A DNA stretch of 64,000 bases from the NCBI RefSeq assembly GCF_003315175.1, contig NZ_QNRQ01000010.1:1-64000 (forward strand), read 5' to 3'. Shown in pieces: positions 20,327-64,000 of the stretch (the stretch's first letter is position 1; each line of letters opens with the position of its first letter). The notes under the pieces were generated by a model, which saw only the letters and a program-made list of their open reading frames with translations, made no database searches and was not told the DNA's origin. The stretch comes from Eoetvoesiella caeni. Its GTDB lineage: Bacteria; Pseudomonadota; Gammaproteobacteria; Burkholderiales; Burkholderiaceae_B. The position numbers and the translations under genes were made by a program.

Positions 20327-20456
20327 GGACGGGCTCCTTGGAAAAGCGGGGCCTCGTCCCTCACGGGATGGCAGCTCCCGCACGCGGTTGAAAAAATGCA
20401 TCAGCGTCATGGGGACGCGCGTCCGCAGACTTGATGCGATGCGGACTGGTGGGCAA

Positions 20457-20523: not shown

Positions 20524-20600
20524 CGGGCAGCTTCGTGCGCGGGCCGCGTCGCGTCAGTTGGAAAACGGCATCCGGCCCACCCCCGATTGATGCGCGCAGA

Positions 20601-21214: not shown

Positions 21215-21351
21215 GGGAAGTCCTGAAATCGACCGGGTGGCGACATGCCCCTGACGGGACGTGGCGGCCATCCCGTGGGTTGGAGAAAGAGGCATCGGTG
21301 CCCCGGTGGGCAGCGTTCGCCGGTGAGATGCCGAGGCGAACTGGCGGGTGG

Positions 21352-21419
21352 CGCGGGTGGAACCCGCGGCAGCCTTGACACCCTGGCTGCGGGCTGCTGC
21401 CAATACATCGGCAATGCAG
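21352..21419 (-). ncRNA. Three-hairpin leader element, copy 4
   Basis: Minus strand: hairpin TGCC/GGCA, hairpin GCAGCC/GGCTGC around AGGGTGTCAA, hairpin CGCGGG/CCCGCG. The outer CATG pair of the other copies is degenerate here. Same position relative to the downstream gene as copies 1-3. Confidence 0.5.
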
Positions 21420-21456
21420 GAGGGAGAATGGCGCGGCCCGCAGGCTGCGTCGCCGA

Positions 21457-36884: not shown

Positions 36885-37065
36885 ATCCTGATCAAGGACG
36901 TTGCAGGCCGTCGCCCGCCGCGCCCGCTGATCTGTGTACTCCACTTGCAGGTCGCGTAGATGCATACGGAAAAAATCTTCTGGTCAACCGAGACCAGGTG
37001 CCTTCGCCTTTCATGTGGGCGTCGTGCATCTATCGGACATCACGAGCAGAGCGGGTGTGGCGGCG

Positions 37066-39027
37066 ATGCATGACCATGTACCGGCTTCACGCCATGACCA
37101 GTTGGACGGCGGTACCGGGCAGCGTCTGCTGTCCACGTTGATGCAGCTGGATGATCACCTTGGCCGACTGACGTATCTCCTGGCTCTACAGTCGCAGAAG
37201 TCGCCCCTGCAGACGTGGTATGCAGATATTACGCCCCTTCAGCAGCGCAGGCTGGCGCAAGATATCCAACGTCTGCATGGTGCCATGAGCGATATCCTTG
37301 GCCGCCACGGACTAGCCATTCCGCCTCCTTCAGGAAGCGTTCTACAGGCGTGCTGTGAAGCCGTACACCAGGCAGTAGCCGCGGTGGAAGCACTAACGCC
37401 CGGGAGTCAGGCCGCAAGAGTTCGATCGTCTGATGATACTGAGGCGGAATTACGCCGCATTATTGCGCACTTGCTAGCACCGCTGGACGAGATGCTGCGC
37501 CCGTTGGAACAGCACGACGCAAACTTCCACTCGGATGACCGCAATCTCGAATACCTATTCAGTATCGCGCGAGCACACGGCCTGTCCGACTTTTATGCAC
37601 CCTTGACGGCTCTTGCTGATCACGAGTCGGCACCTGGCCTGGTCATCGCCATGCTCGGCTTGTCCAACGCGGGCAAGTCTTCGCTGATCAACCGCCTGGT
37701 CGGGGTGCAACTGCTGCCGGTGGGTGTGATGCCCACCAGTGTCGTTCCCGTTCATATCTCCTATGGGGCCCGCGCTTGCGGAGTGGTGCGTCTGTCTAAT
37801 TCCGTGTCGGAGCCGGTCATGCCAGGCAGGCTGGCGGCATTCGCATCCGATCGCTACAACCCCGGCAATGAGAAGCTGGTGGAGCGGCTGTCCTTCGAGC
37901 TGCCGTCGCAGCACCTTGCCGACGGCATCGTTCTGATTGATTCGCCGCCCTGGGCACCTGGAATGGATCCTCCCTTGTGCGACGTCGCACTGGTGGTAAT
38001 TGACGCCACCGGGCCGCTGACCATGAGCGAGATCCCATTGGTAGACGCATTGACTGAGCAGGGCTCCCAGGCGATCGTGCTACTGAACAAAGCTGACCGA
38101 CTGACCGACCAGCAGCGCTGGGACATTCTTGGCTATGTCCTGGAGCATCTTGGAACGCGGCACGAGCAGCAGCCTACGGTTTTCCTGACCAGTGCTGGCG
38201 ATGAGGACTCCGCGCTTTGGCACGATTGGCTGCAGCGAGGATTTGCCCCCTGCCTCGAGCGCCGCGAGGCGCTGCGGCAGACATCACTCCATACCAAGAG
38301 AGCACATCTGTCGAGGGCCATGGCCCTCCGCTTGGCGCGACTCAACCGCACGGACTCCAGCCCCAACACAGAGACATCGCATGAAAACGAGGCCATCTTG
38401 CTGGCGCAGCGCGAAGGTCTCGATCTACTCGCCACTGCATCACAATCAATGGGTGATTGCGACCTGGAAGCACACATACAAGCCGCTCGCATCATCCGCC
38501 AAGTGGTGAATAACGCTGCAGAGCTGGCATGGAGCAGTGGAGAGACCACGCTTGAGCTCGCACCGATGTTTGCAGCATCTGCTGAAGCGCGCATGACGAG
38601 CGTGTGCCATGAAGTTATGAGAGAACTGGAGCTTCTCGCCCTGCAATGTAGCGACTTGCTGGCACGAACTCCGGGCCCCCAGTTCCGCTGGCATGTGGCA
38701 GACCTGGATACGGCGCCGACCTTCGATCCGGGGAACTTGCCACAGACTGAAGCTATTGCTCGTCCTTGGTCAGCAAGCCTGGGACCATGGGCGTTTCGGT
38801 GGCACCTGCGATGGTCCTTGTCTCGCGATCAGCGCCTACTCATTGGGCTGGAGGCGGCACTGGGCGAGGATCTGAAGCAGCTCCAAGACTGGCGCCAACG
38901 GGCACTGGTGGATTTGTCCAACGCCTTTTCCCAAGCCTGCGCCGGCCGTTGCGAGGGAGCGGCACGGATCGGCATTGATCTGGCTGGCCTCCAGGCGCGT
39001 TATCACTCGATTGCAAGCAATGCCTGA
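37066..39027 (+). CDS. Dynamin/Era-like GTPase, fluoride-riboswitch controlled
   Basis: A 653-aa protein. G1 is GLSNAGKSS at about 198-206, G2 is the MPTSVVP region near 223, G3 is degenerate (VLIDSPPW near 285, DSPP instead of DxxG) and G4 is LLNKADRL near 331. About 190 helical residues precede and 270 helical residues follow the G domain, without clear membrane spans, the layout of dynamin-like or 'GTPase with helical arms' proteins. The start is uncertain: MHDHVPASRHDQ is used; an upstream in-frame Met at 36934 overlaps the riboswitch's expression platform. The stop overlaps the next gene by 8 nt. Role in fluoride response unknown. Confidence 0.75.
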   Translation: MHDHVPASRHDQLDGGTGQRLLSTLMQLDDHLGRLTYLLALQSQKSPLQTWYADITPLQQRRLAQDIQRLHGAMSDILGRHGLAIPPPSGSVLQACCEAVHQAVAAVEALTPGSQAARVRSSDDTEAELRRIIAHLLAPLDEMLRPLEQHDANFHSDDRNLEYLFSIARAHGLSDFYAPLTALADHESAPGLVIAMLGLSNAGKSSLINRLVGVQLLPVGVMPTSVVPVHISYGARACGVVRLSNSVSEPVMPGRLAAFASDRYNPGNEKLVERLSFELPSQHLADGIVLIDSPPWAPGMDPPLCDVALVVIDATGPLTMSEIPLVDALTEQGSQAIVLLNKADRLTDQQRWDILGYVLEHLGTRHEQQPTVFLTSAGDEDSALWHDWLQRGFAPCLERREALRQTSLHTKRAHLSRAMALRLARLNRTDSSPNTETSHENEAILLAQREGLDLLATASQSMGDCDLEAHIQAARIIRQVVNNAAELAWSSGETTLELAPMFAASAEARMTSVCHEVMRELELLALQCSDLLARTPGPQFRWHVADLDTAPTFDPGNLPQTEAIARPWSASLGPWAFRWHLRWSLSRDQRLLIGLEAALGEDLKQLQDWRQRALVDLSNAFSQACAGRCEGAARIGIDLAGLQARYHSIASNA

Positions 39028-40506: not shown

Positions 40507-40689
40507 ACCTGATGATCCGGGTGTGTAGCGCTGTCATGACAAGGTGCAACGTCTCTCGCATACCAGTCAACGCCACCGAATGCAGCTCGGGCACGTTAGC
40601 TGGCGAACTTGCGAGTGCAGTGCCAGGCGGTCTCTCTGCTTCCGGATCTTCCAACACACCGTAACCGGTTGTATTGCAAGAGGATTGCC

Positions 40690-41949
40690 ATGGGTTCATC
40701 TATCTCTTCTTCGTCTATTGTCGAGGCACTGCGCCCGCTTGTTGTAGATTGCGGCTCGACGCTGAATTTGCAGTTCTGGGACGGCCGCAGTGAAACTTTA
40801 GGCAGCGGCACTGCTGCCGTCACGTTGCACTTCCCCACGCCAAGCGCGGCACTGAGGCTGATTCCGCCCGATCTCGGAGCGCTCGCTCAAGCCTATATCC
40901 AAGGCGACATAGACGTTGAAGGGCCAGCACAGGATGTTGTTCGCACGGCGATCAAACTCGCAAGCGCGAGCAGCACAAAGCAGCGTGTCATCAGCCGCAT
41001 TATCGGCTGGCGCGTCCGGCGACATACCCCGGACAGCGACAAGAGGGCTATTGCCCACCATTACGACGTCTCCAACGAGTTCTATCGTCTGTGGCTCGAT
41101 AAGCAGATGGTCTATTCCTGCGCCTACTTTCCGACGGGCTCGGAAACCCTAGAGCAGGCCGAGGAAGCTAAGCTCGATCTCATCTGCCGCAAATTGCAAT
41201 TAAAGCCTGGCGATCGCTTCCTCGACATCGGATGTGGCTGGGGGGCATTACTGCTGTGGGCGCAGCGCCACTACGGCGTAAAAGCCACTGGCGTGACCCT
41301 CAGTGAGCGGCAGTTCGAGTATGTGCGCGAGCGTGTACGCGAACTAGGCCTGGAAGATTCGATCGATGTACGCCTACAGGACTATCGCCACATCCCGGGT
41401 GAAGGCATATTCGACAAGATCGCGTCAGTGGGCATGTTCGAGCACGTCGGTGTCCAAAATCTGCCCGTGTACTTCGGCACCATCCAGCGCCTGCTAGCCG
41501 ATGACGGCCTTGTGCTGAACCATGGTATCGCCACGCGCGCGGGGGATGAATCTGTGCGGGATAGCGCCAGTGAATTCATCGACCATTTCGTATTTCCCGA
41601 CGGAGAACTACCCACGATAGCCCAGGCCGTTGAGGCAATGGAGTCTCAGCAGCTTGAGGTGTTCGACGTCGAGGGCTTGCGCCCGCACTACGCTCGAACG
41701 CTGGCGCACTGGGTGGAGCGCCTTGAAGCAAACCGCGATGAAGCCATCAGGTTGGTCGGAGAACAGACCTACCGCGTCTGGCGAATCTACATGGCCGGCA
41801 GCGCCCAGGCGTTCGAACTCGGCTGGATCTCAGTTCACCAGCTGTTGGCCGCCAAGCGCACGGTCAGAGGGTTTTCACCTCAGCGCTGGGGCCGTAGCCA
41901 TATGCTCCCTGCTGCCACCGATGCCCTTCAGCATGAGCGGCATGCATGA
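40690..41949 (+). CDS. cfa: Cyclopropane-fatty-acyl-phospholipid synthase
   Basis: A 419-aa SAM-dependent synthase. SAM motif I is FLDIGCGWG at about 177-185; AIAHHYDVSNEFYRLWLDKQMVYSCAYF near 120-147 and the C-terminal ETYRVWRIYMAGSAQAF-like segment are typical of Cfa. It methylenates unsaturated acyl chains of membrane phospholipids at the inner membrane face. The start MGSSISSSSI follows an AGAGGATTGCC site. Under riboswitch 2, it would be made when fluoride is high; a less proton/HF-permeable membrane is a plausible benefit (inference). Confidence 0.92.
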   Translation: MGSSISSSSIVEALRPLVVDCGSTLNLQFWDGRSETLGSGTAAVTLHFPTPSAALRLIPPDLGALAQAYIQGDIDVEGPAQDVVRTAIKLASASSTKQRVISRIIGWRVRRHTPDSDKRAIAHHYDVSNEFYRLWLDKQMVYSCAYFPTGSETLEQAEEAKLDLICRKLQLKPGDRFLDIGCGWGALLLWAQRHYGVKATGVTLSERQFEYVRERVRELGLEDSIDVRLQDYRHIPGEGIFDKIASVGMFEHVGVQNLPVYFGTIQRLLADDGLVLNHGIATRAGDESVRDSASEFIDHFVFPDGELPTIAQAVEAMESQQLEVFDVEGLRPHYARTLAHWVERLEANRDEAIRLVGEQTYRVWRIYMAGSAQAFELGWISVHQLLAAKRTVRGFSPQRWGRSHMLPAATDALQHERHA

Positions 41950-44597: not shown

Positions 44598-44981
44598 TCA
44601 CCCTTGAGTTAGATACTGAACGAGCCCAATACCGACCAGGACTAGGGCAATGGAACCTGCCACATGAAGGCCGATCTGCAGCGCCGCAAAAGCCAATTCT
44701 CGCTGCTGCAATAGCGTACTGACCTCAAGAGAGAACGTGGAGAACGTGGTCAACCCTCCCAAGAAGCCTGTGATAATCGTTAGGCGCCATACAGGGGGCA
44801 GACCACCGTGGCCGGCGAAAAATTCGTTCGCCAAGCCAATCAGTAGACCTCCCATCAGGTTCGCAGCCAAGGTCCCCAGCGGAATCGTTGGCCATATGCT
44901 GTTCATCTCCATACCCAATATCCAGCGCAATAAGGCACCCAGTGCCGCGCCGATCGAAATACCGATCACGGCGGGGATCAT
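44598..44981 (-). CDS. crcB: Fluoride channel FluC/CrcB
   Basis: A 127-aa membrane protein with four hydrophobic helices. Key Fluc features: GALLRW near residue 15-20, the conserved Asn41 (TLAANLMGG) and GFLGGLTTFSTFSLE at 72-86, which holds the Phe-box and central Na+ site region. It works as a dual-topology dimer exporting F- across the inner membrane. The start MIPAVIGISIG was preferred because it gives the normal family length. Controlled by riboswitch 3. Confidence 0.95.
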   Translation of the reverse strand: MIPAVIGISIGAALGALLRWILGMEMNSIWPTIPLGTLAANLMGGLLIGLANEFFAGHGGLPPVWRLTIITGFLGGLTTFSTFSLEVSTLLQQRELAFAALQIGLHVAGSIALVLVGIGLVQYLTQG

Positions 44982-45104
44982 GAATGACTCCACGCAAAAG
45001 GAAGGGACGGATACTCGTAGAATGAGGGAAAGGCATTGAAGCTGCAGATCGTTTTCATAAGGCCTGAAAATGTGGATTCGAGGCCTGAAACGGAATCCGA
45101 GCAT

Positions 45105-45137
45105 TGCCTGCGGTTCCCGTTCAGGAACTTGCAGGCA
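45105..45137 (-). promoter_or_regulatory. Expression-platform hairpin of the crcB riboswitch
   Basis: Minus-strand TGCCTGC-AAGTTCC...GGGAACC-GCAGGCA. The 5' arm is the pseudoknot strand of riboswitch 3, so hairpin and ligand-bound fold exclude each other. Same geometry as the eno terminator but no U-run follows. Confidence 0.7.
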
Positions 45138-45185
45138 TCATCAGCCGAAGAGGTTTCGGCGGTTTATGGAGAATGCCATCTCCGA
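45130..45185 (-). promoter_or_regulatory. Fluoride riboswitch 3 (crcB)
   Basis: Minus strand: GGAGATGGCATTCTCC (P1), ATAAACCGCC, P3 (CCGAA/TTCGG), GGCTGATGATGCCTGC; GGCAT/ATGCC pseudoknot. This is the textbook partner of crcB. It is divergent from riboswitch 4; both promoters share the 120 nt between them. The 462-nt gap 44982-45443 thus holds two riboswitches. Confidence 0.95.
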
Positions 45186-45289
45186 GAAAAAGCTACTGCC
45201 AGTACGGTATAGTTTAGCAATGGTGCTTCCTCCGCGCAATGTAAACATTCTCAGGCATCGTCACCAGTCTGGCCTCATCTCGGGAATGA

Positions 45290-45366
45290 TGTTACAGTGG
45301 TAATCAGACGGAGATGGCATTCTCCCCTAACTGTCAGCAGACAGGCTGACTAATAATGCCTACGCG
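45290..45366 (+). promoter_or_regulatory. Promoter and fluoride riboswitch 4 (eno-mutS-mutS)
   Basis: An extended -10 (TGT-TACAGT, 45290-45298) precedes P1 GGAGATGGCATTCTCC at 45310. Then come CCTAACTGTC, P3 (CTGTC/GACAG) and a variant 3' strand, GGCTGACTAATAATGCC, in place of the usual GGCTGATGATGCC. GGCAT still pairs with ATGCC. Confidence 0.88.
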
Positions 45367-45395
45367 TTCCTGAACCGGAACCCGTAGGCATTTTT
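45357..45395 (+). terminator. Riboswitch-controlled terminator before eno
   Basis: TGCCTACG-CGTTCC...GGAACC-CGTAGGCA followed by TTTTTG. The 5' arm includes the pseudoknot strand ATGCC of riboswitch 4, so fluoride binding should block the terminator and switch eno on. Confidence 0.9.
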
Positions 45396-45443: not shown

Positions 45444-46820
45444 ATGCACAACAGCTCCTGCGCCATCACTGATCTGGCTGCCAACGAAATCCTAGATTCG
45501 CGCGGCAACCCCGCGCTACAAGTTACTCTCACGCTCGAAGATGGAACCACTGCCGTCGCAGGGGTACCTTCGGGGGCCTCTACCGGCGCCTTCGAAGCCC
45601 ACGAGTTGCGCGATGGTGATAACACGCGCTTCGGTGGCAAGGGTGTGTGGCAAGCCGCTGCCCACGTTACCGATACTATCCTCGAAGCCCTGCGGGGCAT
45701 GCGCGCTGACTCCCAGCGCGAGATCGACACTCGGTTGATCGAGTTGGACGGCACCGAGTCCAAGTCTCAGTTGGGTGCCAATGCAATTCTGGGTGTGTCG
45801 CTGGCGTGCGCGCGGGCCGCTGCGGCCTTCCACGGCCTGCCGCTCTTCCAGTACCTGGGCGGATCCGATGCCCACATACTGCCCGTCCCGATGTTCAACA
45901 TTCTCAACGGTGGTAAGCACGCCACGCACGGGCCGGATTTCCAAGAATTCAAGCTTGTGCCGCTGGGGGCGCCCACCTTCGCGCAAGCACTGCGATGCGG
46001 AGCTGAGGTCTACCACGCTCTGCACGACCTGCTGGTCGCCAAAGGGCTGTCCGCGAACGTAGGCGACGAGGGAGGCTTCGTACCGGAGCTGCCCAGCAAC
46101 GAAGCCGCCATGGGCCTGATGATGCAGGCAATCGAGCGCGCAGGATACAAGGCGGGGGAGGATGTCTGCCTGGGCCTGGATCCTGCAGCCACCTCGTTCT
46201 TTGCCGACGGGCGCTACCGCCTGGAACGCGACAAGCTCGATCTGGATTCGGCAGAAATGACGGCCTACTGGGCAGAGTGGGTGGATCGCTACCCGCTGGT
46301 CTCACTCGAAGACCCGCTCGCCGACAATGATTGGAGAGGATTTGCACACCTGACATCGGTGCTGGGCGAACGTGTGCAGGTCGTGGGCGACGATCTCTTC
46401 GTCACCAACCCGCGCTTCCTGTCCCGAGGGCTGGCCGAGCACTGCTGCAACAGCATCCTGATCAAGCCCAACCAGATCGGCACAATCACAGAGACCCAGG
46501 GCACCGCCCGCATGGCTCTGCGCGCAGGGTACACCTGCATGGTGTCACATCGCTCGGGCGAGACACTGGACACCAGCATCGCGGATCTCGCCGTCGCTCT
46601 GAACTGCGGCCAAATCAAGTCCGGCGCGCCGGCGCGCGGCGAGCGCGTCGCCAAATACAACCGGCTGATGGAAATCGAACGCCAACTGGGTGCAAGCGCC
46701 ACATTCGCGGGGAAGACGGCCTTTCCACGGTTTGGGCAGACACATGCAAATGCCGCGGTCTCCCGACCCGACAAGCTCCAAGGCCGAGAGAGCACTCCAT
46801 CACGGGGGCTACCAGCCTAA
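45444..46820 (+). CDS. eno: Enolase, fluoride-inducible extra copy
   Basis: A 458-aa enolase. The mobile loop SGASTG is at 43-48, acid/base Glu209 lies in GDEGGF, metal ligands are Asp246, Glu289 (LED) and Asp316 (VGDD), Lys341 is in ILIKPNQIGT and HRSGET is at 369-374. All catalytic residues appear intact. Enolase is strongly inhibited by fluoride plus phosphate and Mg, so an extra inducible copy is a direct remedy. The C-terminal 35 residues extend past the normal end and look non-homologous. First gene after riboswitch 4. Confidence 0.95.
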   Translation: MHNSSCAITDLAANEILDSRGNPALQVTLTLEDGTTAVAGVPSGASTGAFEAHELRDGDNTRFGGKGVWQAAAHVTDTILEALRGMRADSQREIDTRLIELDGTESKSQLGANAILGVSLACARAAAAFHGLPLFQYLGGSDAHILPVPMFNILNGGKHATHGPDFQEFKLVPLGAPTFAQALRCGAEVYHALHDLLVAKGLSANVGDEGGFVPELPSNEAAMGLMMQAIERAGYKAGEDVCLGLDPAATSFFADGRYRLERDKLDLDSAEMTAYWAEWVDRYPLVSLEDPLADNDWRGFAHLTSVLGERVQVVGDDLFVTNPRFLSRGLAEHCCNSILIKPNQIGTITETQGTARMALRAGYTCMVSHRSGETLDTSIADLAVALNCGQIKSGAPARGERVAKYNRLMEIERQLGASATFAGKTAFPRFGQTHANAAVSRPDKLQGRESTPSRGLPA

Positions 46821-46854
46821 ACCAACCTGGAAGAACAAGAAAAGGAGCACCATC

Positions 46855-48390
46855 ATGATCACTTTCAGCGTGCTGTATCCCGGGCCACAAGACGGCGTGT
46901 CCCGTGAACAGGCCGAGGTGCCAGAGTTCTTCACCGATCTGAATCTGGATCAGATCATCGGCCACATCACCGCAAAAAAAGGCGAATACAACCTGCAACC
47001 TTTCTTCTATCGCTCCCTGGATGAGGCGGATAGCGTGGCCTACCGGCAAGAAGTCATGCACGACCTGGAACGGCCCGCCCTGTATACCTCCTTGATGACT
47101 TTCGCCACACAACTGCAAGCGATGCGTGCACGCCTCACACAGGCTGCGAAGCTGTACTACCCCTTGCAGAAACAAGCGTGGTTTCTGTGCGCAACCGAAC
47201 AATACTACGAAGCCGTCCAGGCCCTGGCGCAAGACCTTGGAAAACTGGAATTTACCTCCCGCGGCATGCAAGCGCTAAAAGCCCATGCAGACAACTACAC
47301 GCAGGGCGCGAATTTCCAGACACTGGTGGCAGATGCAAAGGCCGCCCGCAGCGCCCTTGCATCGATCCGCTACTGCATCCACATCAAGGGCGACACCTTC
47401 ACAGTGCTTGAGTACCAAGGCGAAAGCGACTACAGCGCCGAGGTTTCCGCCACGTTCGAGAAATTCCGTCAAGGGGCAGCGAAAGATTACCGAGTTAAAT
47501 TTCACGATCTGCCGGATATGAACCACATCGAAGCCCAGGTGCTGGAATTCGTGTCCAAGCTGTTCCCGGAGGTGTTCACGCAACTGGATATCTTCTGCCA
47601 GCAGCATCAGGGCTACCTGGATGAAACGCTGGCTGTTTTTGATCGCGAAGTCCAGTTCTACACCGCCTACCTGGACTACATGAACACCTTGCGTGGCAAG
47701 GGGCTGGATTTCTGCTATCCCGAAGTGGGTCGTGTGAACAAGACTGTGTTTGCTCAAGACACCTACGATCTTGCCCTGGCCGACAAACTCCTGAACCAGG
47801 GCAAATCCATCGTGCGCAACGATTTCAGCCTGTGCGACAAAGAGCGCATCTTCATCGTGTCCGGGCCCAACCAAGGGGGCAAGACCACCTTCGCCCGGAC
47901 GTTCGGCCAGTTGCACTATCTGGCGAACCTGGGGCTGCCGGTGCCCGGCAACGCTGCCAGGCTGTTCCTCTATGACCGACTCTTCGCGCACTTCGAGCGC
48001 GAGGAAGACATCCGCAATCTGCGTGGCAAGCTGGAGGACGATCTCGTGCGCATCCACCGCATCCTGCAGGGCGCGACACCCGACAGCATCATCATTATGA
48101 ACGAGATCTTCACGTCCACGACCCTGCAGGACGCATTGTTCCTGGGTAGTCGGATCCTGGAGCGAATCGTCCAGCTGGATCTGCTGTGCGTCTGTGTCAC
48201 CTTCATCGACGAGCTCGCGCACCTGAGCGACACCACCGTCAGCATGGTGAGCACCATCGTGCCCGACGACCCCGCACAACGAACCTACAAGGTCGTTCGT
48301 CGGCCTGCGGACGGAAAGTCCTATGCGCTGTCGCTGGCCCATAAATACCGCATCGAAGCCCACGACCTGGAAGAGAGGCTGCCATCATGA
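46855..48390 (+). CDS. MutS-like ATPase 1 (no mismatch-binding domain)
   Basis: A 511-aa protein starting MITFSVLYPGPQDGV after an AAGGAG site. The C-terminal ABC-type domain carries Walker A GPNQGGKTT at 337-345, IIIMNEIF Walker B near 418 and a STTLQDA signature near 425. Residues 1-320 form helical lever/clamp-like domains (III/IV of MutS); the N-terminal mismatch-recognition domain I with its Phe-x-Glu is missing. Such MutS-like proteins were noted among fluoride-riboswitch-associated genes. The function in fluoride response is unknown. Confidence 0.88.
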   Translation: MITFSVLYPGPQDGVSREQAEVPEFFTDLNLDQIIGHITAKKGEYNLQPFFYRSLDEADSVAYRQEVMHDLERPALYTSLMTFATQLQAMRARLTQAAKLYYPLQKQAWFLCATEQYYEAVQALAQDLGKLEFTSRGMQALKAHADNYTQGANFQTLVADAKAARSALASIRYCIHIKGDTFTVLEYQGESDYSAEVSATFEKFRQGAAKDYRVKFHDLPDMNHIEAQVLEFVSKLFPEVFTQLDIFCQQHQGYLDETLAVFDREVQFYTAYLDYMNTLRGKGLDFCYPEVGRVNKTVFAQDTYDLALADKLLNQGKSIVRNDFSLCDKERIFIVSGPNQGGKTTFARTFGQLHYLANLGLPVPGNAARLFLYDRLFAHFEREEDIRNLRGKLEDDLVRIHRILQGATPDSIIIMNEIFTSTTLQDALFLGSRILERIVQLDLLCVCVTFIDELAHLSDTTVSMVSTIVPDDPAQRTYKVVRRPADGKSYALSLAHKYRIEAHDLEERLPS

Positions 48391-49967
48391 AAGCATTCCT
48401 CATGTATCGTGACCGCGATTTTGACCTACACACGCCCCTGCCATGGAATGAGCCAGACTTGGTGCAGGATCTAGAGCTGGAAACGCTGCTGCACGCGATG
48501 GCACAGGAAGACGAATTCCTGTACAAGGTCTCCCGCACCGCGTTGCTCGCGGGCTGTAGCGAACCGGACGAGGTCCTGTACCGGCAGGCCGTGCTGCAGG
48601 ACTGCCTGGATCATCCCGACGTCGCCCGCTCGCTATATCAGCTTGCCGTAGACACCATCGAAGCCGAGCATAAGAACTACTGGGGGCTGGCCCACTATCC
48701 AAGTGGCGTCCTGCATCACTCCGTCGAAGTCATGACGTTACTGGCGACGGCGCTCAAGCAGCTGCGCGCTATCGCTGATGCCCAGGCCAGTACGTTTTCC
48801 TCCGAGGGCTTTCGCCGGTTCTTCACCATGCTGCAGCACGAACTGGGAGACGACTACTTTGAGACCATCCAGACGCATCTGAATACACTGAAATTTCGCC
48901 ACGGCGTGCTGATCAGCGCCCGCTTGGCGGAAGACAACTGCGGGGAAGACTATGTCCTGTGCACACCAAAAGCCCCGCCACACAGCTGGTTGCTGCGCAC
49001 CTTCGGCAAGAAGCCGCCTTCCTACTCATTCACCCTGGCACCACGCGACGAGAATGGGGCAAGAGCCCTCTCGGAGCTGGGTGACCGGGGCGTGAACCTG
49101 GTGGCTAACGCACTGGCGCAATCGACCGAACACATTCTCAGCTTCCTTCTCATGATGCGCACGGAGTTCGCCTTCTACGTCTCGTGCCTGAACCTGCGCG
49201 AACAGCTGGCACAGAAGGACGAGCCGGTCTGCTTTCCACGGCCTTCACCCGCCGGGGAGCGAACCCTAACCTGTCGTGGCTTGTATGACGTCTGTCTGAC
49301 GCTGCATCTACCGCAGCGCGCAGTGGGCAACGATCTCAATGCCGATGGCAAGATCCTGTTCGTCATCACCGGCGCCAACCAGGGTGGAAAGTCCACGTTC
49401 CTGCGCAGTGTGGGACTCGCACAACTGATGATGGCCAGCGGCTTGTTTGTCCCGGCCGAATCGTACGCCGCCAACCTGTTCCGCGGCTTGTATACGCACT
49501 ACAAGCGCGAAGAGGACACCAGCATGAACAGTGGCAAGCTCGACGAGGAACTCGCACGCATGAGTGCCATCGTGGATCACATCCAGCCCGACGCCCTCAT
49601 CCTGTTCAACGAATCCTTTGCCGCCACCAACGAACGGGAAGGTTCGGAAATCTCCAGCCAGGTTACGCACGCCCTGCTGGCGCATCGGATCAAGGTGTTT
49701 TCAGTCTCGCACCTGTACGAATTCGCCCGCGTCCTGTACGAGGAACACCGGCCCGACGCGACGTTCCTGCGGGCGCACCGCGACGAAGGCGGCCAGCGCA
49801 CGTTCCGGCTGGAAGTGGCTGCGCCGCTTGCCACCAGCCACGGCGCGGATCTGTACGAAAAAATATTCGGCGCAACCACGCCTGGCGACGGTATCCCCCA
49901 GGGGCCAGCTGGGCAGGATGCGCCGCCAGCCGACCCCTTGCCCGAAGAAGCGATCAAGGGCGCCTGA
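48387..49967 (+). CDS. MutS-like ATPase 2 (no mismatch-binding domain)
   Basis: A 526-aa second MutS-like protein that overlaps the first by 4 nt (ATGA). Walker A is GANQGGKST at 329-337 and ALILFNESFAATNEREGSEIS near 402-422 holds Walker B and the signature. The lever region 30-320 is divergent from its partner. Overlap and similar size suggest an obligate heterodimer, as in MutSalpha-type pairs. The last 14 nt overlap the 3' end of the convergent MFS gene. Confidence 0.88.
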   Translation: MKAFLMYRDRDFDLHTPLPWNEPDLVQDLELETLLHAMAQEDEFLYKVSRTALLAGCSEPDEVLYRQAVLQDCLDHPDVARSLYQLAVDTIEAEHKNYWGLAHYPSGVLHHSVEVMTLLATALKQLRAIADAQASTFSSEGFRRFFTMLQHELGDDYFETIQTHLNTLKFRHGVLISARLAEDNCGEDYVLCTPKAPPHSWLLRTFGKKPPSYSFTLAPRDENGARALSELGDRGVNLVANALAQSTEHILSFLLMMRTEFAFYVSCLNLREQLAQKDEPVCFPRPSPAGERTLTCRGLYDVCLTLHLPQRAVGNDLNADGKILFVITGANQGGKSTFLRSVGLAQLMMASGLFVPAESYAANLFRGLYTHYKREEDTSMNSGKLDEELARMSAIVDHIQPDALILFNESFAATNEREGSEISSQVTHALLAHRIKVFSVSHLYEFARVLYEEHRPDATFLRAHRDEGGQRTFRLEVAAPLATSHGADLYEKIFGATTPGDGIPQGPAGQDAPPADPLPEEAIKGA

Positions 49968-52142: not shown

Positions 52143-52478
52143 CTACGCGGGGTTTGCCGGTGCACTGGGGTTCAGTCGGAAGTATTCAACCGGCTGGCGA
52201 ATGCAAAACACCTGCAGGCCCGCAGCCTCGACCGCATGCATCAGCTCATCGCTCTTGCCATCTTCCAACATGAACGTCAGTTCTTCCGGTTCATCGGCAA
52301 GCTCAAAAAAATGCGCCGAATGCGAGCGATCATTCTCTCCCACACTCTCAGTATCGGTACGCCGGGTGTGGCGATTGATCCCCAATGTCTTGGCAATTCG
52401 CAGAACTGCGTCCAGCACAAGTTCCCCGTGATGGCGGCGTGAGCGCGGCGCCATAAACGTAATTTCATAGCCTTTCAT
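52143..52478 (-). CDS. Second DUF190 (PII-like) protein
   Basis: A 111-aa DUF190 protein starting MKGYEITFMAPRSRRHHGELVLDAVLRIAKTLG with a CTGGAGAGAAACG site. It shares SAHFFELADEP-E and the C-terminal QVFC-RQPVEYF pattern with the copy beside crcB (44226). No CrcB gene is next to it, so it may serve FluC in trans or one of the carriers in its own operon. First gene after riboswitch 5; a 155-nt gap separates it from DUF211. Confidence 0.85.
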   Translation of the reverse strand: MKGYEITFMAPRSRRHHGELVLDAVLRIAKTLGINRHTRRTDTESVGENDRSHSAHFFELADEPEELTFMLEDGKSDELMHAVEAAGLQVFCIRQPVEYFRLNPSAPANPA

Positions 52479-52707
52479 CGTTTCTCTCCAGAGGGCTGAC
52501 GCAATACCAGCGGCGGCCTGGTAACAGCAAGGTGCGACCAGGCAATATGGCAATGGCAGTAGATAAAAGAGAGACGGGACCGCTTAATGTTGCGGTTTCG
52601 CTTCGAAACGGCGAAAACCGGGAACCAAGCGCATCTGCTACCCAAGGGGTATTGACGGAAGGGTAGATCAAGATAGCTCACGAATCCTGTCTCCGAAAAC
52701 GGATCAT

Positions 52708-54587: not shown

Positions 54588-55061
54588 CTAATGACCGACT
54601 GACCACGGTGACCTGTGTCTTTTATGTGGAGAAAGGCGCTGGCTACCCGCCAATCCCCCATAGCGGTGATTTTTGGGCAGACACAAAACGTTATCAGGAG
54701 TGAACTGCGCCTCACCCAGCACAAATGCTGAGATGAACATATCCCCTCGTAATATGGCGGCCGCAAGCCTATGGTTTCCATCAGTCATGGGCCAGGCGCG
54801 TGAGCACGCTCTCAGATCGATCGTGATGGGCTCGTCCCAACCTGTAATGGCCAACGTAGCCACACGCGCGACGTGCATCGTGCGCGTATCAAAAATCTTG
54901 CCAAGAAACCGTTCCCCCGTCTTTATCTGACGTAACATCTCTTGTCGCACTTCCGATGGCTTAATGGGGGTGTAAAACCCAAAATGATTTCCGGAATATA
55001 GATCGAGGCGAAGTTTGACCAGTTTCTCAACTGGAATTCTGACGACAAGTTTTGGTGTCAT
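54588..55061 (-). CDS. ParB-like (DGNHR) protein of unknown function
   Basis: A 157-aa protein starting MTPKLVVRIPVEKLVKLRLDLYSGNHFGFYTPIKPSE. The segment WPMTDGNHRLAAAILRGDMF near residues 94-113 is the (D/E)GNHR box of ParB/sulfiredoxin-like folds, which can bind or hydrolyse nucleotides. The C-terminus is basic and poorly ordered. It overlaps the 111-aa gene by 4 nt. I do not recognise the family; candidate for a novel fluoride-induced nucleotide-binding protein (inference). Confidence 0.65.
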   Translation of the reverse strand: MTPKLVVRIPVEKLVKLRLDLYSGNHFGFYTPIKPSEVRQEMLRQIKTGERFLGKIFDTRTMHVARVATLAITGWDEPITIDLRACSRAWPMTDGNHRLAAAILRGDMFISAFVLGEAQFTPDNVLCLPKNHRYGGLAGSQRLSPHKRHRSPWSVGH

Positions 55062-55393
55062 GGCGCAGCCCCTTCCAAAGCCGGTATCCGTAAGACCTCC
55101 GTGGGCCACGTTCGGATGGAAGCAAACAAGGCTCCACCCGTACGGACAGCCCAATTCGGCAGTTGCACGCCTTTGCACAGATACAGTGGGCAGAGTGCCA
55201 CGACACGCGATGGAACCCGAAAAATAAACTTTCGAGCCCCACCAGGTGCGTAAGCCGAATTCGATGTCGGGAAAGTGTGACGCCTGGATGTGATCAGGGC
55301 ATCCGAGAGGCGGAGAACATCGTCTGCAGACGAGCCGTCGTGTACCTGGCGGTACAGATATCCTGCAATGCGCGTCGTTATTGTTAACATCAT
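55058..55393 (-). CDS. Riboswitch-controlled protein of unknown function (111 aa)
   Basis: First gene behind riboswitch 6. Starts MMLTITTRIAGYLYRQVHDGSSADDVLRLSDALITSRRHTFPTSN; the C-terminal half (FIFRVPSRVVALCPLYLCKGV) is beta-rich. A GGTGGC ribosome site sits directly before ATG. It overlaps the DGNHR gene by 4 nt, so the two are co-translated. No known motif. Confidence 0.6.
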   Translation of the reverse strand: MMLTITTRIAGYLYRQVHDGSSADDVLRLSDALITSRRHTFPTSNSAYAPGGARKFIFRVPSRVVALCPLYLCKGVQLPNWAVRTGGALFASIRTWPTEVLRIPALEGAAP

Positions 55394-55431
55394 GCCACCA
55401 ATTTCGATTCCGTAATACGGACGATGAAATC

Positions 55432-55484
55432 AGTAGGCATCATCAGCCATTGTCAGGCAATTTGAAGGAGGAATGCCATCTCCT
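55432..55484 (-). promoter_or_regulatory. Fluoride riboswitch 6 (unknown-DGNHR-DUF3579-ZapE operon)
   Basis: Minus strand: GGAGATGGCATTCCTCC (P1), TTCAAATTGCC, P3 (GCC/GGC), GGCTGATGATGCCTAC; GGCAT/ATGCC pseudoknot. Downstream, the ribosome site and start codon of the first gene read GGTGGCATG, whose GGCAT could pair with the same ATGCC strand, suggesting translational control. Confidence 0.9.
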
Positions 55485-55612
55485 TATCGATGTCATGTTA
55501 AGACATGACGCCCGCCTTGGCAATGCCTTACCACACCGTTGACACCAGATACAACCCTCGACCCGGCATGTACCACGCCTCCGGGCAGCTCCCCGCAATC
55601 GGCCGATGCCGG

Positions 55613-59047: not shown

Positions 59048-59056
59048 CATTCGTAA

Positions 59057-59115
59057 GGCGATGGGGTTCGCCACGGCGCTGGCCGGAACTGCCGCAAGGC
59101 TGATGACTCCTGACG
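59057..59115 (+). promoter_or_regulatory. Fluoride riboswitch 9 (hyf-like operon)
   Basis: GGCGATGGGGTTCGCC (P1), a small inserted hairpin, AACTGCC, P3 (GCC/GGC), GGCTGATGACTCCTG. GGGGTT pairs with GACTCC. The strand TCCTGACG (59108-59115) is perfectly complementary to CGTCAGGA (59141-59148), which contains the ribosome site of hyfC, so fluoride should free translation. Confidence 0.95.
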
Positions 59116-59154
59116 ATTCGAACAACAAGAAGTCAGAAACCGTCAGGAAGCCAT

Positions 59155-60117
59155 ATGCAGCCGCTCGCCCGGTTCATTGCTATCAATCTGATCCAGATTG
59201 CCTTTTTGCTGGCCTTCGCGCCATTGCTTGAAGGCGTCTTGGCGCGCCTGGAAGAAATCATCCAGGGCAAGCATGGGCCCAGCATCTTCCAGCCGTATTA
59301 CGATCTCTGGAAACTCTTTGGCAAAGACGAGATCGTCTCCAGGGAAAGCACCTGGATATTCCGCTTTGCCCCGATCGTCCATTTTGCAATGCCGATCTTC
59401 GTGGTGATGCTGATTCCGGCACTCACCGACTATCCCCTGTTTCTCGCCTTCGCGGGCGACATGATCGCCGTCGGATTCCTGTTTTCGGCCAGCGGCTTTT
59501 TCGTAGCGCTGGCCGCCATGGACACGGGCAACGTCTACGGGCCCATTGGCGCAAGCCGCACGCGCATGGTCGGGTTCCTCGCCGAACCCGTCTACATGGT
59601 GGCGTTCTTCGCGCTGTCCTTCGTGGCCAATTCCACCATCCCTTACACCGTGAACGCCAGCTGGGCGCTGTCCTGGGCCAGCATGCTGCAGCCCGCGCAC
59701 CTGCTGGTATTCGTCGCCTTCCTGCTGCTGGTGCTGGCCGACGAAAAGCGGCTGCCGGTCGACAACCCCGGCGGCAAGGCCGAAACCGCCATGATCGGGC
59801 ACTCCAACAACCTGGAATATTCGGGCACGGGCGCGGCACTCATGAAATGGGGCAGCGCGATGAAATTCATGGCGGTGCTGATCGTGTTCCTGAACGTCAT
59901 CCTCACGCCCTGGGGGCTGGCGGCCACGCCGCACTGGGGCGACGTGCTCATGGCGATCCCCAAGGTGCTGGGCAAGATGCTCATATTCCTCATCGTGCTC
60001 GCCGTGATCGAGACCACGCTTGCCAAGCTGCGGCTGTTTCGCATCAGCGAATTCCTGGCCTCGGCCTTCGTCATCTGCATCTTTGCCATGGGCGTGCGCC
60101 TGGTGGGGGTAGGCTGA
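59155..60117 (+). CDS. hyfC: Hydrogenase-4/complex I-like subunit HyfC (NuoH family)
   Basis: A 320-aa membrane protein with about eight helices. NuoH-family features: LLEGVLARLEEIIQGKHGPSIFQPYYDLWKLFGKDEIV near residues 24-61 and DEKRLPVDNPGGKAE near 196-210, the loop that contacts the catalytic arm in complex I. It anchors the peripheral subunits to the membrane arm. First gene of a tightly overlapping operon (stop and next start share TGATG). Confidence 0.9.
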   Translation: MQPLARFIAINLIQIAFLLAFAPLLEGVLARLEEIIQGKHGPSIFQPYYDLWKLFGKDEIVSRESTWIFRFAPIVHFAMPIFVVMLIPALTDYPLFLAFAGDMIAVGFLFSASGFFVALAAMDTGNVYGPIGASRTRMVGFLAEPVYMVAFFALSFVANSTIPYTVNASWALSWASMLQPAHLLVFVAFLLLVLADEKRLPVDNPGGKAETAMIGHSNNLEYSGTGAALMKWGSAMKFMAVLIVFLNVILTPWGLAATPHWGDVLMAIPKVLGKMLIFLIVLAVIETTLAKLRLFRISEFLASAFVICIFAMGVRLVGVG

Positions 60118-60785
60118 TGGATACCGCAATTGCCCTGAACGGCTTCATCGCGGCGCTGTTCGTGCTCTTCAGCCTGGGCGTCATCGTCCAGCGCCAGATG
60201 CTGAGCACCCTGTACCTGTTCATGCTGCACGCCGTGGCGTTGACCGCATCCGCCATCGTCCTTGGATTCGCCCTGGGCAGCGTGCACCTGTTCTGGGTCG
60301 CCGCCATTACCTTCACGACCAAAGTGATTGCCGTGCCCCTGGTGCTGCGCTATTCCGCCGGCAGCGAAATCTATGAACGCCGCGAGGTGGACCAGGTTCT
60401 CACCATTCCCACCTCGGTGCTCATTGCCGCGGTGCTCGCCCTCATCGCCTGGATCGTGGCGCAGCCGCTGGTGCAAGCGATCACGGATCGCCCCTTTGCC
60501 GCCATGAATCTGCCCACCGGGCTCATCGCCGTGTTCTTTGGCGCCTTCACGGTGGCCGTGCGCCGCGAGGCGGTGGCGCAGCTCATGGGCATCCTCGTCA
60601 TGGAAAGCGGCGCGTTCTTTGCCTCGATCGCCATCGTCAACGAGCTTTCCATCATCGCCGAAGTCGCCGCCGCCGTGGACGTCCCGATCGCCGCGCTCGT
60701 GATCGGCCTGCTGATCCGCAGCATCCACCATGTGACGGGCATGACCCGCGTGGGGCTGCTGGCCGAGCTCAAGGAGCGGCGGTGA
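60117..60785 (+). CDS. hyfE: HyfE-like small membrane subunit
   Basis: A 222-aa membrane protein with about seven helices: MDTAIALNGFIAALFVLFSLGVIVQRQMLSTLYLFMLHA, RYSAGSEIYERREVDQVL near 86 and MGILVMESGAFFASIAIVNELSIIAEVAAAVDV near 155-190. The last part resembles NuoK/MnhC-type subunits, with Glu residues inside helices that may carry protons. Overlaps neighbours by one base on each side. Confidence 0.88.
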   Translation: MDTAIALNGFIAALFVLFSLGVIVQRQMLSTLYLFMLHAVALTASAIVLGFALGSVHLFWVAAITFTTKVIAVPLVLRYSAGSEIYERREVDQVLTIPTSVLIAAVLALIAWIVAQPLVQAITDRPFAAMNLPTGLIAVFFGAFTVAVRREAVAQLMGILVMESGAFFASIAIVNELSIIAEVAAAVDVPIAALVIGLLIRSIHHVTGMTRVGLLAELKERR

Positions 60786-62239
60786 TGCTGACCTGGATCC
60801 TGCTCGTTCCGGCCATTGCCGCGGCGGTCACTCTGTCCAGCCGCCGGGCGGCGCCCTCGATCACGCTGGCGACGTCCCTCATCGTATTCATTCTTTCGTG
60901 GGCCGCTGCTGCACAAGTGGAACAAGGCACAGTGCTGCAATCCTTCTACGGCGGCCTCACGCTCGACGCCTTCTCGGCGGTGTATCTCGTGCTGGTGGCC
61001 TTCGTCGGGGTGACGGCCGCCCTGTATTCGATCGGCTACCTCCCCGCGCATTACTCAGAGCAGGAAGGAGCGTCGCCCCGCTATCGGGCGTACTGGCCGC
61101 TCTACAACCTGTTCATGATGTCCATGCTGGCCGTGCCGCTGCTGGCCAACCTCGCGGTCGTCTGGATCGCCATCGAACTTACCACGGTATTTTCGGCCTT
61201 CCTGGTCGCGTACGAAGACCGCACGACAGCGCTCGAAGCGGCGTGGAAGTACGTCGCGCTCACCAGCATGGGGGCCATGATCGCGCTCTTTGGCGTGCTG
61301 GTGCTGTACTACGCCGTGCACGATGCCGGCCAGCCCGTGACCTGGCCCGGACTCATCGCGGCGGCACCGTACCTGAAGCCCGCCCTGCTGTCGGTGAGCT
61401 TCGTGCTCTGGCTGGTGGGCTTCGGCACCAAGGCCGGGCTGGTGCCCATGCACACCTGGCTGCCCGATGCGCACAGCCAGGCGCCCGCCTCAATCTGCGG
61501 CCTGCTCTCGGGCGTGGAGGTGAGCGGCGCCCTCTACATGCTGCTGCGCATCCACCCCGCACTGCTGCGCAACCCCGGTGTTCTGCATCCGCAGGCCTGG
61601 TACCTGGTCGCCGGCCTGTTGAGTGTCGCAGCCGCCGCCTTTCTGCTCCTGCAGGTGCACGACTTCAAGCGCCTGTTCGCCTACTCGACCATCGAACACA
61701 TGGGCGTGATCCTCACCGCCTGCGGGCTGGGCGCCAACGCGCACGAGCTGGGCACCGTGTACCAGTTCTTCGCCCACGCCTTCACCAAGTCGTTCTGCTT
61801 CTATGTGGCAGGGCTCGCCACCATCGTCTACGGCACCCAGGAAATCGCCGCCGTGCGCGGACTGCTGCACCGCTCTCCGGTCGTCGGCTGGGCGCTGCTG
61901 CTGGGGGGCCTCGCCATCGCCGGTGCACCTCCCTTTGCGCTGTTCATATCCGAATTCCAGATCGTGGCCACCGGCTTCGCCGCGGGCGAGTATGTGGCGA
62001 CCGGCCTGCTCACGGCGCTGCTGGTGCTGGCCTTCGTGGCAATCCTGTACCAGATCGGCCGCATCGTCTTCGGCGAGCCGGCTCCAACCGAGGCCGAAGC
62101 GCACGCCAAGCTGCCTGCAACCAGCCTGGCGGCCGTCGGCATCGCCTTCGTCCCGATGTTCGTATTCGGTTTCTATGTGCCGCCGCCGCTGCTGTCTCTC
62201 TTGCGGCAGGCTGCAACGCTGCTGGGAGGTACGGCATGA
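60785..62239 (+). CDS. hyfF: HyfF-like ion-pumping subunit (NuoL/M/N family)
   Basis: A 484-aa membrane protein with about 13-14 helices. Family signatures: AIELTTVFSAFLVAYE near 118 (conserved Glu), GFGTKAGLVPMHTWLPDAHSQAPASICGLLSGV near 214-246 (conserved Lys) and HDFKRLFAYSTIEHMG near 286-301. These residues form the proton channel of Mrp-type antiporter-like subunits. The ATG following a GTG is used as start. Only one such subunit is visible here, as in reduced group-4 complexes. Confidence 0.9.
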   Translation: MLTWILLVPAIAAAVTLSSRRAAPSITLATSLIVFILSWAAAAQVEQGTVLQSFYGGLTLDAFSAVYLVLVAFVGVTAALYSIGYLPAHYSEQEGASPRYRAYWPLYNLFMMSMLAVPLLANLAVVWIAIELTTVFSAFLVAYEDRTTALEAAWKYVALTSMGAMIALFGVLVLYYAVHDAGQPVTWPGLIAAAPYLKPALLSVSFVLWLVGFGTKAGLVPMHTWLPDAHSQAPASICGLLSGVEVSGALYMLLRIHPALLRNPGVLHPQAWYLVAGLLSVAAAAFLLLQVHDFKRLFAYSTIEHMGVILTACGLGANAHELGTVYQFFAHAFTKSFCFYVAGLATIVYGTQEIAAVRGLLHRSPVVGWALLLGGLAIAGAPPFALFISEFQIVATGFAAGEYVATGLLTALLVLAFVAILYQIGRIVFGEPAPTEAEAHAKLPATSLAAVGIAFVPMFVFGFYVPPPLLSLLRQAATLLGGTA

Positions 62240-63813
62240 GTACGCGCACGGAACTGCTGGCCAGGCTGCGCACGCAGCTGCCCAAGGCGGGCATCTGGGA
62301 TGCCGGGCCCTGGATAGAACTGCGCCCGCCGCTGGCGGCATTGCGGAAGATCGCGGCCGCCCTGGTTGCAAACTTCGGATGCGAATTCGCCACGCTGGTC
62401 ACGGAGGCTCGTGACGCCGACGACTCGTACATGCTGCTCTATTTCTTCTACCAGCCGCAGGACAGCATCCTGATCGCGATCCGGCTGGCTGCAGGAGCCG
62501 ATACCCTGGTGCCCGCCATCGGCTCGCAGGTGCATGCGGCTGCATGGCACGAACGGGAGACCGAGGATCTGTTCGGCATTTCGTTCGAAGGCCACCCCTT
62601 CCTGGGCGACTACGTCCTGCACGACGCCCTCTGGCCCGAGCGCCTGGCCCCCATGCGCCGCTACTTCGATGCGCGCCTGCGCGTGGCGGGATCGGGCGCC
62701 GGCGCGGCCTGGCAGCCCCGGCGCATCCTGCAGCAGGAAGGGGCCATCACCTTCCCGGTGGGGCCGATCTGGGCGGACTACAACGAAGCCGGCTTGTGGC
62801 TGCTGGAGACTCCGGGCGAGCAGATCCTGGGTGGCCTGACCCGCTTGTTCTACAAATACCGCGCTGTGGAGAAGATCGCCGAGGGCCTGGTGCCGGATCA
62901 GGCGCTGCTGCTGGCCGAACGCTTCAGCGGCAGCGCCGCGTTCGCCCACGCATACGCCTTCTGCCGCGCGCTGGAAACCCTTGCCCATTGCCAGGTACCG
63001 CCGCGCGCCCACGTCCTGCGCGCGGTATTCGCCGAGCTGGAGCGCATCCGCTACCATGCCGCCACGATCGCGGAACTTGCCGGCTCCACCTCGCTTGCGG
63101 TCGGCAAATCCATGTCGCAGGAACTCGAAGAACAGGTCTTGCGCCTGTCCGGGCAGCTGTGCGGACACCGCTATCTGTTCGGGGTCTGCATCCCGGGCGG
63201 ACTGGCGCAGTCCCCCGATGCCGGCGCGCTTGCCGCGCTGGGCACGGGGATCGCGGATGCAGCCGACGAATTCGCCCGGCTGGAGCGGCTTTTCGTGCAC
63301 ACGTCCAGCTACCTGGACCGCATCGAGGAGATGGGCACGCTGCGCCCGGAGGTCGCCGACCTGTACGGCGTGGTCGGCCCGGTGGCACGCGCCTCGGGGC
63401 GCACGGTGGATCTGCGCCGCGCGCTTCCCTATGGGATTTACAAGACGCGCGCCCCCGAGATCCCGCGCGAGACGGAGGGTGACGGCTACGCCCGGCTGCG
63501 CGTGTATTTTGCCGAAATCCGCGCGAGCATGGCGCTCATCCAAACCCTGCTCACGCAGCTGCCCGACGGCCCGGTTGCCACCAGCTGCCCGCCCACCGCA
63601 GGCGCGGCGCTGGGCTGGACCGAGGCCCCCGCGGGCGGCACCTTCCATTGGCTGCGCCTGGACGAGAACGGGCGAGTCCGCCGCTGGCGTATCGCGCCGC
63701 CGGGGTTCCGCAACTGGCACGCCTTTCACCGGGCCCTGGAAGGCGCCGCCTTCCAGGATTTCCACATCATCATGGCGAGCTTCGGCTTGTCGGTCGCGGA
63801 GAGTGACCGCTGA
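62236..63813 (+). CDS. HyfG/HycE-like large subunit without nickel ligands
   Basis: A 525-aa fusion as in HycE/HyfG: residues 1-145 form the NuoC-like 30-kDa domain (HERETEDLFGISFEGHP near 105-121), and residues 155-525 the 49-kDa/NiFe-large-subunit fold. The N-terminal nickel motif (CGxC in hydrogenases) is SGSA at 231-234 and the C-terminal DPCxxC is replaced by ASFGLSVAESDR. It therefore cannot hold a [NiFe] centre and resembles NuoD or the Ehr (energy-converting hydrogenase-related) proteins. Overlaps hyfF by 4 nt. Likely a structural or conformational subunit coupling a redox or ion process. Confidence 0.88.
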   Translation: MSTRTELLARLRTQLPKAGIWDAGPWIELRPPLAALRKIAAALVANFGCEFATLVTEARDADDSYMLLYFFYQPQDSILIAIRLAAGADTLVPAIGSQVHAAAWHERETEDLFGISFEGHPFLGDYVLHDALWPERLAPMRRYFDARLRVAGSGAGAAWQPRRILQQEGAITFPVGPIWADYNEAGLWLLETPGEQILGGLTRLFYKYRAVEKIAEGLVPDQALLLAERFSGSAAFAHAYAFCRALETLAHCQVPPRAHVLRAVFAELERIRYHAATIAELAGSTSLAVGKSMSQELEEQVLRLSGQLCGHRYLFGVCIPGGLAQSPDAGALAALGTGIADAADEFARLERLFVHTSSYLDRIEEMGTLRPEVADLYGVVGPVARASGRTVDLRRALPYGIYKTRAPEIPRETEGDGYARLRVYFAEIRASMALIQTLLTQLPDGPVATSCPPTAGAALGWTEAPAGGTFHWLRLDENGRVRRWRIAPPGFRNWHAFHRALEGAAFQDFHIIMASFGLSVAESDR

Positions 63814-64000
63814 TGGCCAACTGGACACTGACCAGCCTCGCACGCGGCATCCGCACCCTGCACTGGCCGCGCAACGCCGATCTGCCGCCAGGGGCGGTAC
63901 CGGTGCGGCTGCACGGCCTGGCCGCCGCGCCGGCATGGGGCGAGAACGACGCATCCTGGGTGCTGCGCACGGAAGGCTCGCGCGGCCCGCTGCCGGCCCG
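63813..64000 (+). CDS. Next hyf-like subunit, N-terminal part (cut by window edge)
   Basis: ATG overlaps the previous stop (TGATG). The visible 62 residues, MANWTLTSLARGIRTLHWPRN..., resemble the N-terminal leader of HyfH/HyfI-type electron-transfer subunits (ferredoxin or NuoB-like), but the cluster-binding cysteines would lie beyond the window. Confidence 0.6.
   Translation, partial: MANWTLTSLARGIRTLHWPRNADLPPGAVPVRLHGLAAAPAWGENDASWVLRTEGSRGPLPA

Follow-up and report, generated by a model that had tools for sequence, protein, structure and literature searches.

A fluoride riboswitch-led relative of hydrogenase 4 and complex I in Eoetvoesiella caeni without recognisable nickel or iron-sulfur ligand sets

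Genes for a formate hydrogen lyase have been noted behind the crcB motif (Weinberg 2010, PMC2864571), and a 2024 review (PMC11139923) explains them as a route by which formate is oxidized to make ATP. According to the same review, hydrogen fluoride (HF) enters the cell, dissociates, and lowers both cytoplasmic pH and proton-motive force, CrcB lets F- out passively, and Na+/H+ antiporters are the second most common fluoride riboswitch genes, after exporters. The association of the fluoride riboswitch with such genes is therefore already known. Here, we analyze an operon of this kind in Eoetvoesiella caeni that begins near the right end of the window – bases 1-64000 of a 179 kb contig (NZ_QNRQ01000010.1) – and that was read to its end past the window edge. 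Its complex resembles hydrogenase 4 and complex I, has no nickel ligands, and belongs to a small clade in which every known iron-sulfur ligand set has been lost.

Four described systems are closest in composition. The Escherichia coli Hyf and Hyc hydrogenases share membrane subunits C, E, F and B, a fused NuoC/D-type large subunit and a NuoB-type small subunit, and respiratory complex I (NuoB, NuoCD, NuoH, NuoL/M/N) has homologous quinone-module and membrane-arm subunits. The Mrp multisubunit cation/H+ antiporters have antiporter-like subunits with conserved Glu and Lys residues and no redox cofactor. The Ehr complexes have a group-4-like large subunit without nickel ligands, and their function is unknown in the literature; in the passages concerned, three papers (PMC6349859, PMC10284858, PMC4378227) treat these relatives as of unknown or suspected redox function, with no mention of fluoride.

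The operon has the gene order C-E-F-G-I-B-ppa, of which the window contains four genes and the start of the fifth. The positions and families of the open reading frames (C, E, F and a NuoC/D-fused G) agree with an earlier description made from the letters of the window alone (the sequence-only reading), and extending the contig, as that reading proposed, supplied the small subunit, a HyfB-like subunit and a pyrophosphatase:

59048-59119, + strand: fluoride riboswitch aptamer RF01734, operon leader (Rfam, 48.1 bits, E 3e-10)
59155-60117, + strand: HyfC/HycD/NuoH-like membrane subunit C, 320 amino acids (PF00146, NADHdh, E 1.5e-30)
60117-60785, + strand: HyfE-like membrane subunit E, 222 amino acids (NCBIfam hydrogenase 4 membrane subunit, E 2.5e-15, below the curated cut-off)
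60782-62239, + strand: HyfF-like antiporter-like subunit F, 485 amino acids (hydrogenase 4 subunit F, E 9.8e-102; Proton_antipo_M)
62236-63813, + strand: HyfG-like NuoC/NuoD-fused large subunit G, 525 amino acids (PF00346, Complex1_49kDa; PF00329, Complex1_30kDa)
63813-64511, + strand (window part 63813-64000): HyfI/NuoB-like small subunit I, 232 amino acids
64508-66625 of the contig, outside the window: HyfB-like subunit B
66717-67262 of the contig, outside the window: inorganic pyrophosphatase (ppa)

Relatives were collected by scanning 84,980 species genomes with an alignment of the large subunit; 212 were found, and the family counts given below cover the best 80 of these. We refer to the fluoride-linked complex of the window and its close relatives as type A; a second complex, type B, is about 38% identical to type A and likewise riboswitch-led.

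The large subunit has no nickel site. Its four nickel-ligand columns read S, A, S, E, where the positive controls, E. coli HycE and HyfG, have Cys in all four; relative to these proteins CGIC has become SGSA, and C-YS-C-TDR has become S-VA-E-SDR, as the sequence-only reading had recognized. The L1 and L2 CxxC nickel-binding cysteines of group 4 [NiFe] hydrogenases are thus missing, and the site is present in none of about 100 large subunits checked (type A aligned in full, type B, and Ehr-like loci), the last ligand column being Glu in type A and mostly Gly in type B and Ehr. The columns of the NuoD quinone-site His and Tyr hold Asn and Gly in the window protein; across type A, Gly or Ala occupies the Tyr column, and only one relative has His in the other. 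The closest solved chain is HycE of formate hydrogenlyase (7z0s, E 8.8e-49), and a structure model (predicted local distance difference test score, pLDDT, 87.7; predicted template modelling score, pTM, 0.91) superimposes on it with TM-scores of 0.92/0.91, so the fold has been kept. We regard the anatomy of the operon and the loss of the nickel ligands as nearly certain.

The small subunit has lost its iron-sulfur ligand sets as well. Type A small subunits normally have an N-terminal ferredoxin domain (CPTGAL...HCxHCxRCR) followed by a proximal cluster motif (CxxC...C...C). In the window protein a single clean in-frame gap stands in place of the ferredoxin domain of its relatives, and the proximal [4Fe-4S] ligands C78, C81 and C145, which mark group 4 hydrogenases, are replaced by D78, L81 and E145, with only C175 left; none of the six subunit proteins of the Eoetvoesiella caeni operon contains a CxxC pair. 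Five species share this iron-sulfur-free form: Eoetvoesiella caeni, Castellaniella caeni (L059), a Rhodanobacter metagenome-assembled genome (MAG; L061) and two proteobacterial MAGs (L060, L062). All five have GD[ED]AIDGG where other type A proteins have G[AVTS]CA..G. The other 72 type A small subunits with these columns aligned all keep C78 and C145, and C81 is present in all but one gapped row.

In the large-subunit tree the five species form one clade with a Shimodaira-Hasegawa-like approximate likelihood ratio test (SH-aLRT) value of 100, nested within a 21-row clade (also 100) whose other members, where the small subunit is readable, bear iron-sulfur ligands. Sequencing error was considered as a cause of the missing cysteines and rejected; the five genomes share the loss, and one of them, that of Castellaniella caeni NBRC 101664, comes from a cultured strain, whose large subunit is 86% identical to the window protein. 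For the small subunit of Castellaniella, the structure model (pLDDT 80.6) still matches the HycG chain of formate hydrogenlyase and the NuoB chain of complex I. Of the 72 iron-sulfur-bearing small subunits, 28 have N, H, Q or G as the fourth proximal ligand (aligned with window residue 175), and from these substitutions the proximal cluster seems to have been under relaxed demands already, perhaps being unusual or weakened.

The subunit genes are maintained, since all six frames are open and the ratio of nonsynonymous to synonymous substitution rates (dN/dS) relative to Castellaniella caeni is 0.32 for the small subunit and lies at 0.06-0.13 for the other five (C, E, F, G and B). Selection has kept the fold, the subunit set and the membrane-arm charges. 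That all known iron-sulfur ligand sets have been lost in a maintained clade is a conclusion we hold with high confidence.

The membrane arm retains most of the charged residues associated with ion movement. In subunit C, E144, D203, E210 and E221 are invariant in 72 relatives and also occur in E. coli HyfC, HycD and NuoH; E132, K156, K217, K336 and E391 are conserved in subunit F; and conservation of the membrane-arm charges is about 100% in 72-75 relatives. The invariant charges in C (D203, E210 and E221), F and B would fit ion translocation, and the earlier suggestion of an ion-translocating membrane arm is supported by them. The accompanying claim that proton-channel residues are kept stands for D203, E210 and E221 in C and for E132, K217, K336 and E391 in F; it does not extend to the central lysine of transmembrane helix 8 (TM8). 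Some relatives have two HyfB-like genes in a row.

The aptamer of the leader riboswitch ends 35 nucleotides 5' of the hyfC-like ATG. Its 3' end, TCCTGACG, is complementary to CGTCAGGA, which contains the Shine-Dalgarno sequence of the first gene (AGGA), and in a folding calculation that treated one strand only this sequence opens once the complementary anti-Shine-Dalgarno strand is held. The complementarity is arranged in the same way in Castellaniella. The riboswitch is predicted from this to be a translational ON switch. The operon is very probably under fluoride control, and the description 'fluoride-induced' in the sequence-only reading was a sound deduction.

The linkage to fluoride extends through the family. 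A riboswitch lies within 900 nucleotides upstream of the first gene in 60 of the 69 loci that have this region on the contig, counting matches above or near the Rfam cut-off, with a sample of the sequences inspected; several of the nine other loci lie on short contigs, show sub-threshold matches, or sit just downstream of a different riboswitch-led run of genes. In a class-level sample, a riboswitch precedes 10/11 fluoride-type operons (the eleventh is cut by a contig end), and none was found near the other HyfG-like places of that sample. The relatives studied belong to ten or more phyla, with Acidithiobacillus and MAGs well represented, and several record titles hint at origins in bogs, sulfur caves and the like. 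Nearly all of them have the gene order C-E-F-G-I-B. In Acidithiobacillus (L063-L071) type B and type A complexes lie in tandem with CrcB between them. Of the 80 loci as fetched, 22 encode CrcB, which is often no more than 2.5 kb away and on the same strand. The 29 other fluoride riboswitch loci sampled in the phylum have recognisable neighbors including CrcB and DUF190, and no Hyf-like gene.

Comparison with Ehr places the fluoride-linked complex apart. The likeness proposed in the sequence-only reading holds to the extent that both have a group-4-like large subunit without nickel ligands, together with Mrp-like membrane subunits. However, in a phylogeny of the large subunit, a check that this reading had called for, the fluoride-linked loci fall outside the clade of ordinary sampled Ehr: Ehr (99), type A (100) and type B (100) form separate clades in what is a quick tree with long branches. 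Sampled Ehr loci also have the order B-C-E-F-G-I, no fluoride riboswitch, and small subunits that have no ferredoxin domain and keep the proximal cluster ligands. Among open-licence papers, which the literature search covered, none was found that joins Ehr-type complexes with fluoride or reports an iron-sulfur-free form. What the complex is, its separation from Ehr, and the existence of a cofactor-free clade all appear to be new findings.

The other described systems differ in different ways. From Hyf and Hyc the complex is distinguished by the absence of nickel ligands, of iron-sulfur ligand sets, and of HyfA, HyfD, HyfH or formate dehydrogenase genes, and by a terminal HyfB gene and fluoride control. 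Respiratory complex I has an NADH module, the N2 cluster ligand set, and the quinone-site His and Tyr, all of which are missing here. Mrp antiporters are not known to have a soluble arm resembling NuoB/NuoC/NuoD, or a comparable NuoH-like subunit; the fluoride complex retains a soluble NuoC/D- and NuoB-like arm and a NuoH-like subunit, and the soluble-arm subunits are under purifying selection.

With its nickel ligands gone, and all recognisable iron-sulfur ligand sets as well, the complex is excluded by its sequence from being a hydrogenase or formate hydrogenlyase, and its subunits no longer offer any recognisable route for electrons from one to another. Lacking any recognisable electron-driven power, the iron-sulfur-free clade is most likely powered by an ion gradient. 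With moderate confidence, and by analogy with Mrp, we propose that the complex is a gradient-driven proton/ion exchanger built on the framework of complex I. In the presence of fluoride, the ribosome binding site would be freed by the riboswitch and the complex would be made alongside CrcB. HF entry coupled with F- exit via CrcB would amount to proton import and depolarization, which the complex would counter by moving protons against another ion, restoring pH and charge balance; it would thereby meet the need that the riboswitch-controlled Na+/H+ antiporters meet elsewhere. The soluble NuoB/NuoD-like arm would act as a structural part or gate and not as an electron wire. Proton expulsion against acidification by HF, as the sequence-only reading suggested, is plausible on these grounds. 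More tentatively, this may be a machine of the complex I superfamily that has a NuoB/NuoD-like arm and no electron transfer at all, with ion gradients, or the binding of fluoride/protons itself, driving its cycle.

Several observations weigh against a cofactor-free exchanger. Most relatives keep two predicted iron-sulfur clusters, and redox coupling may therefore be ancestral. The large subunit has six cysteines conserved across the iron-sulfur-free clade, with C318 nearly clade-specific, and these could form an unrecognised metal site. The central TM8 lysine of antiporter-like subunits is Glu246 in F and Asn in B, and the HyfB-like subunit of this clade has also lost the D294/K296 pair of the usual HDxKR motif, such that any pumping by the distal subunit may be atypical. 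In addition, a plain Na+/H+ antiporter running in the usual direction would import protons.

A redox-driven pump similar to iron-sulfur-bearing Ehr or Mbx, fed by an electron donor and passing electrons to quinone or another carrier, would account for the ferredoxin domain and proximal cluster retained in relatives. Such a pump is unlikely given that both clusters are gone in the clade, that across type A the quinone-site columns have the substitutions described above, and that the operon contains no oxidoreductase gene; for the Eoetvoesiella copy, whose small subunit has no iron-sulfur ligand set, the redox-driven transporter offered as an option in the sequence-only reading is very unlikely. 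Equally doubtful is the proposal that the complex itself exports fluoride as a proton-coupled F-/H+ or HF transporter made from complex I parts. It would suit the riboswitch control and the absence of CrcB above cut-off from 36 of the 80 genomes, eight of which also have no CLC, although many of the genomes are MAGs whose incompleteness may explain these absences. The window island encodes CrcB, and many loci have it beside the complex, so the complex is no substitute for it there, and we know of no anion path in the complex I superfamily.

It is also improbable that a new site for a metal or ion has arisen in the emptied cluster pocket and gates the complex, with Mg-F or pH perhaps being what it senses. 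The acidic residues D144, D/E145 and D148 of the small subunit, the GD[ED]AIDGG motif and the six large-subunit cysteines are compatible with such a site; however, shared ancestry of just five sequences could yield the same pattern, and Asp144 is also found in some Ehr small subunits. Decay into a non-functional operon might be suspected from the simultaneous loss of several ligands, and is very hard to reconcile with the open frames, the low dN/dS values and the agreement among five species. Least credible of all is a true formate hydrogenlyase yielding H2 and energy under fluoride: the fluoride literature lists such genes (PMC2864571, PMC11139923) and the E. coli enzyme is the closest solved structure, yet no large subunit checked has nickel ligands, no iron-sulfur ligand set remains, and the operon has neither the formate dehydrogenase gene nor the genes for ferredoxin-like partner subunits that would be expected alongside, with HycB, HyfA, HyfD and HyfH all missing (the rest of the genome was not searched for FdhF). 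The sequence refutes formate hydrogenlyase at the Eoetvoesiella locus, and the published reading fails, for want of the nickel site, at the loci checked here.

Formate hydrogenlyase is cited among the common targets of the fluoride riboswitch; for the checked sequences this assignment is wrong, and they point to ion homeostasis and not to energy metabolism. The gradient-driven exchanger, if real, would represent a new class of fluoride-stress ion exchanger across many phyla and a large extra component of fluoride tolerance in bacteria, with relevance for acidophiles and defluorinating strains. If a redox-cofactor-free member works, it would offer a natural test of ion movement by a complex I-type membrane arm without electron transfer, and such a test would be relevant to the still debated coupling of complex I.

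The leader riboswitch of the operon belongs to a fluoride island. The genome has nine fluoride riboswitch matches, eight of them above the Rfam cut-off, and all lie within 22 kb of the contig (36802-59119); the island is unusually dense, and some of its riboswitches form divergent pairs. A large-subunit homolog at E <= 1e-100 occurs in only one of 398 other genomes sampled in the order, and the operon therefore looks horizontally acquired; no relative was found in viral contigs, and plasmids yielded distant relatives only, the best place at about 37% identity. Features of the island and the region neighboring it are:

10011-10156, 12958-13106, 20398-20533 and 21292-21429, - strand: four radC RNA (RF01754) matches in a neighboring mobile-element-like region
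34770-36632, + strand: phage-type integrase at the left edge of the island (PF00589, Arm-DNA-bind_3)
36934-39027: dynamin-like GTPase under a fluoride riboswitch, with relatives near the complex in 14/80 loci
40609-41949: cyclopropane fatty acid synthase, likewise riboswitch-controlled (fluoride), and found close to the complex in 9/80 loci
44598-45104, - strand: CrcB (Fluc) fluoride channel (PF02537, E 9.4e-26)
45125-45192, - strand: riboswitch of the CrcB gene (RF01734, 56.1 bits)
45301-45369, + strand: riboswitch of the enolase gene (RF01734)
45444-46820, + strand: enolase (PF00113)
46690-48390 and 48387-49967: tandem MutS domain V proteins behind the fluoride-controlled enolase
52143-52553, - strand: protein without a Pfam match
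54588-55178, - strand: protein without a Pfam match, behind a riboswitch at 55427-55492 (- strand)

Further island genes encode two histidine-phosphatase/phosphoglycerate mutase-like proteins, DUF190, an AFG1 ATPase, a CYTH protein and citrate synthase, and the island holds many extra copies of fluoride-sensitive enzymes. The Enterobacter cloacae FRM fluoride resistance island is similar in having riboswitch-controlled enolase, phosphoglycerate mutase, pyrophosphatase and CrcB on a genomic island, but its six-gene operon has no Hyf-like complex. The cyclopropane fatty acid synthase may lower membrane permeability to HF. Both MutS domain V proteins recur near the complex in five other loci (L060, L079, L103, L105 and L106).

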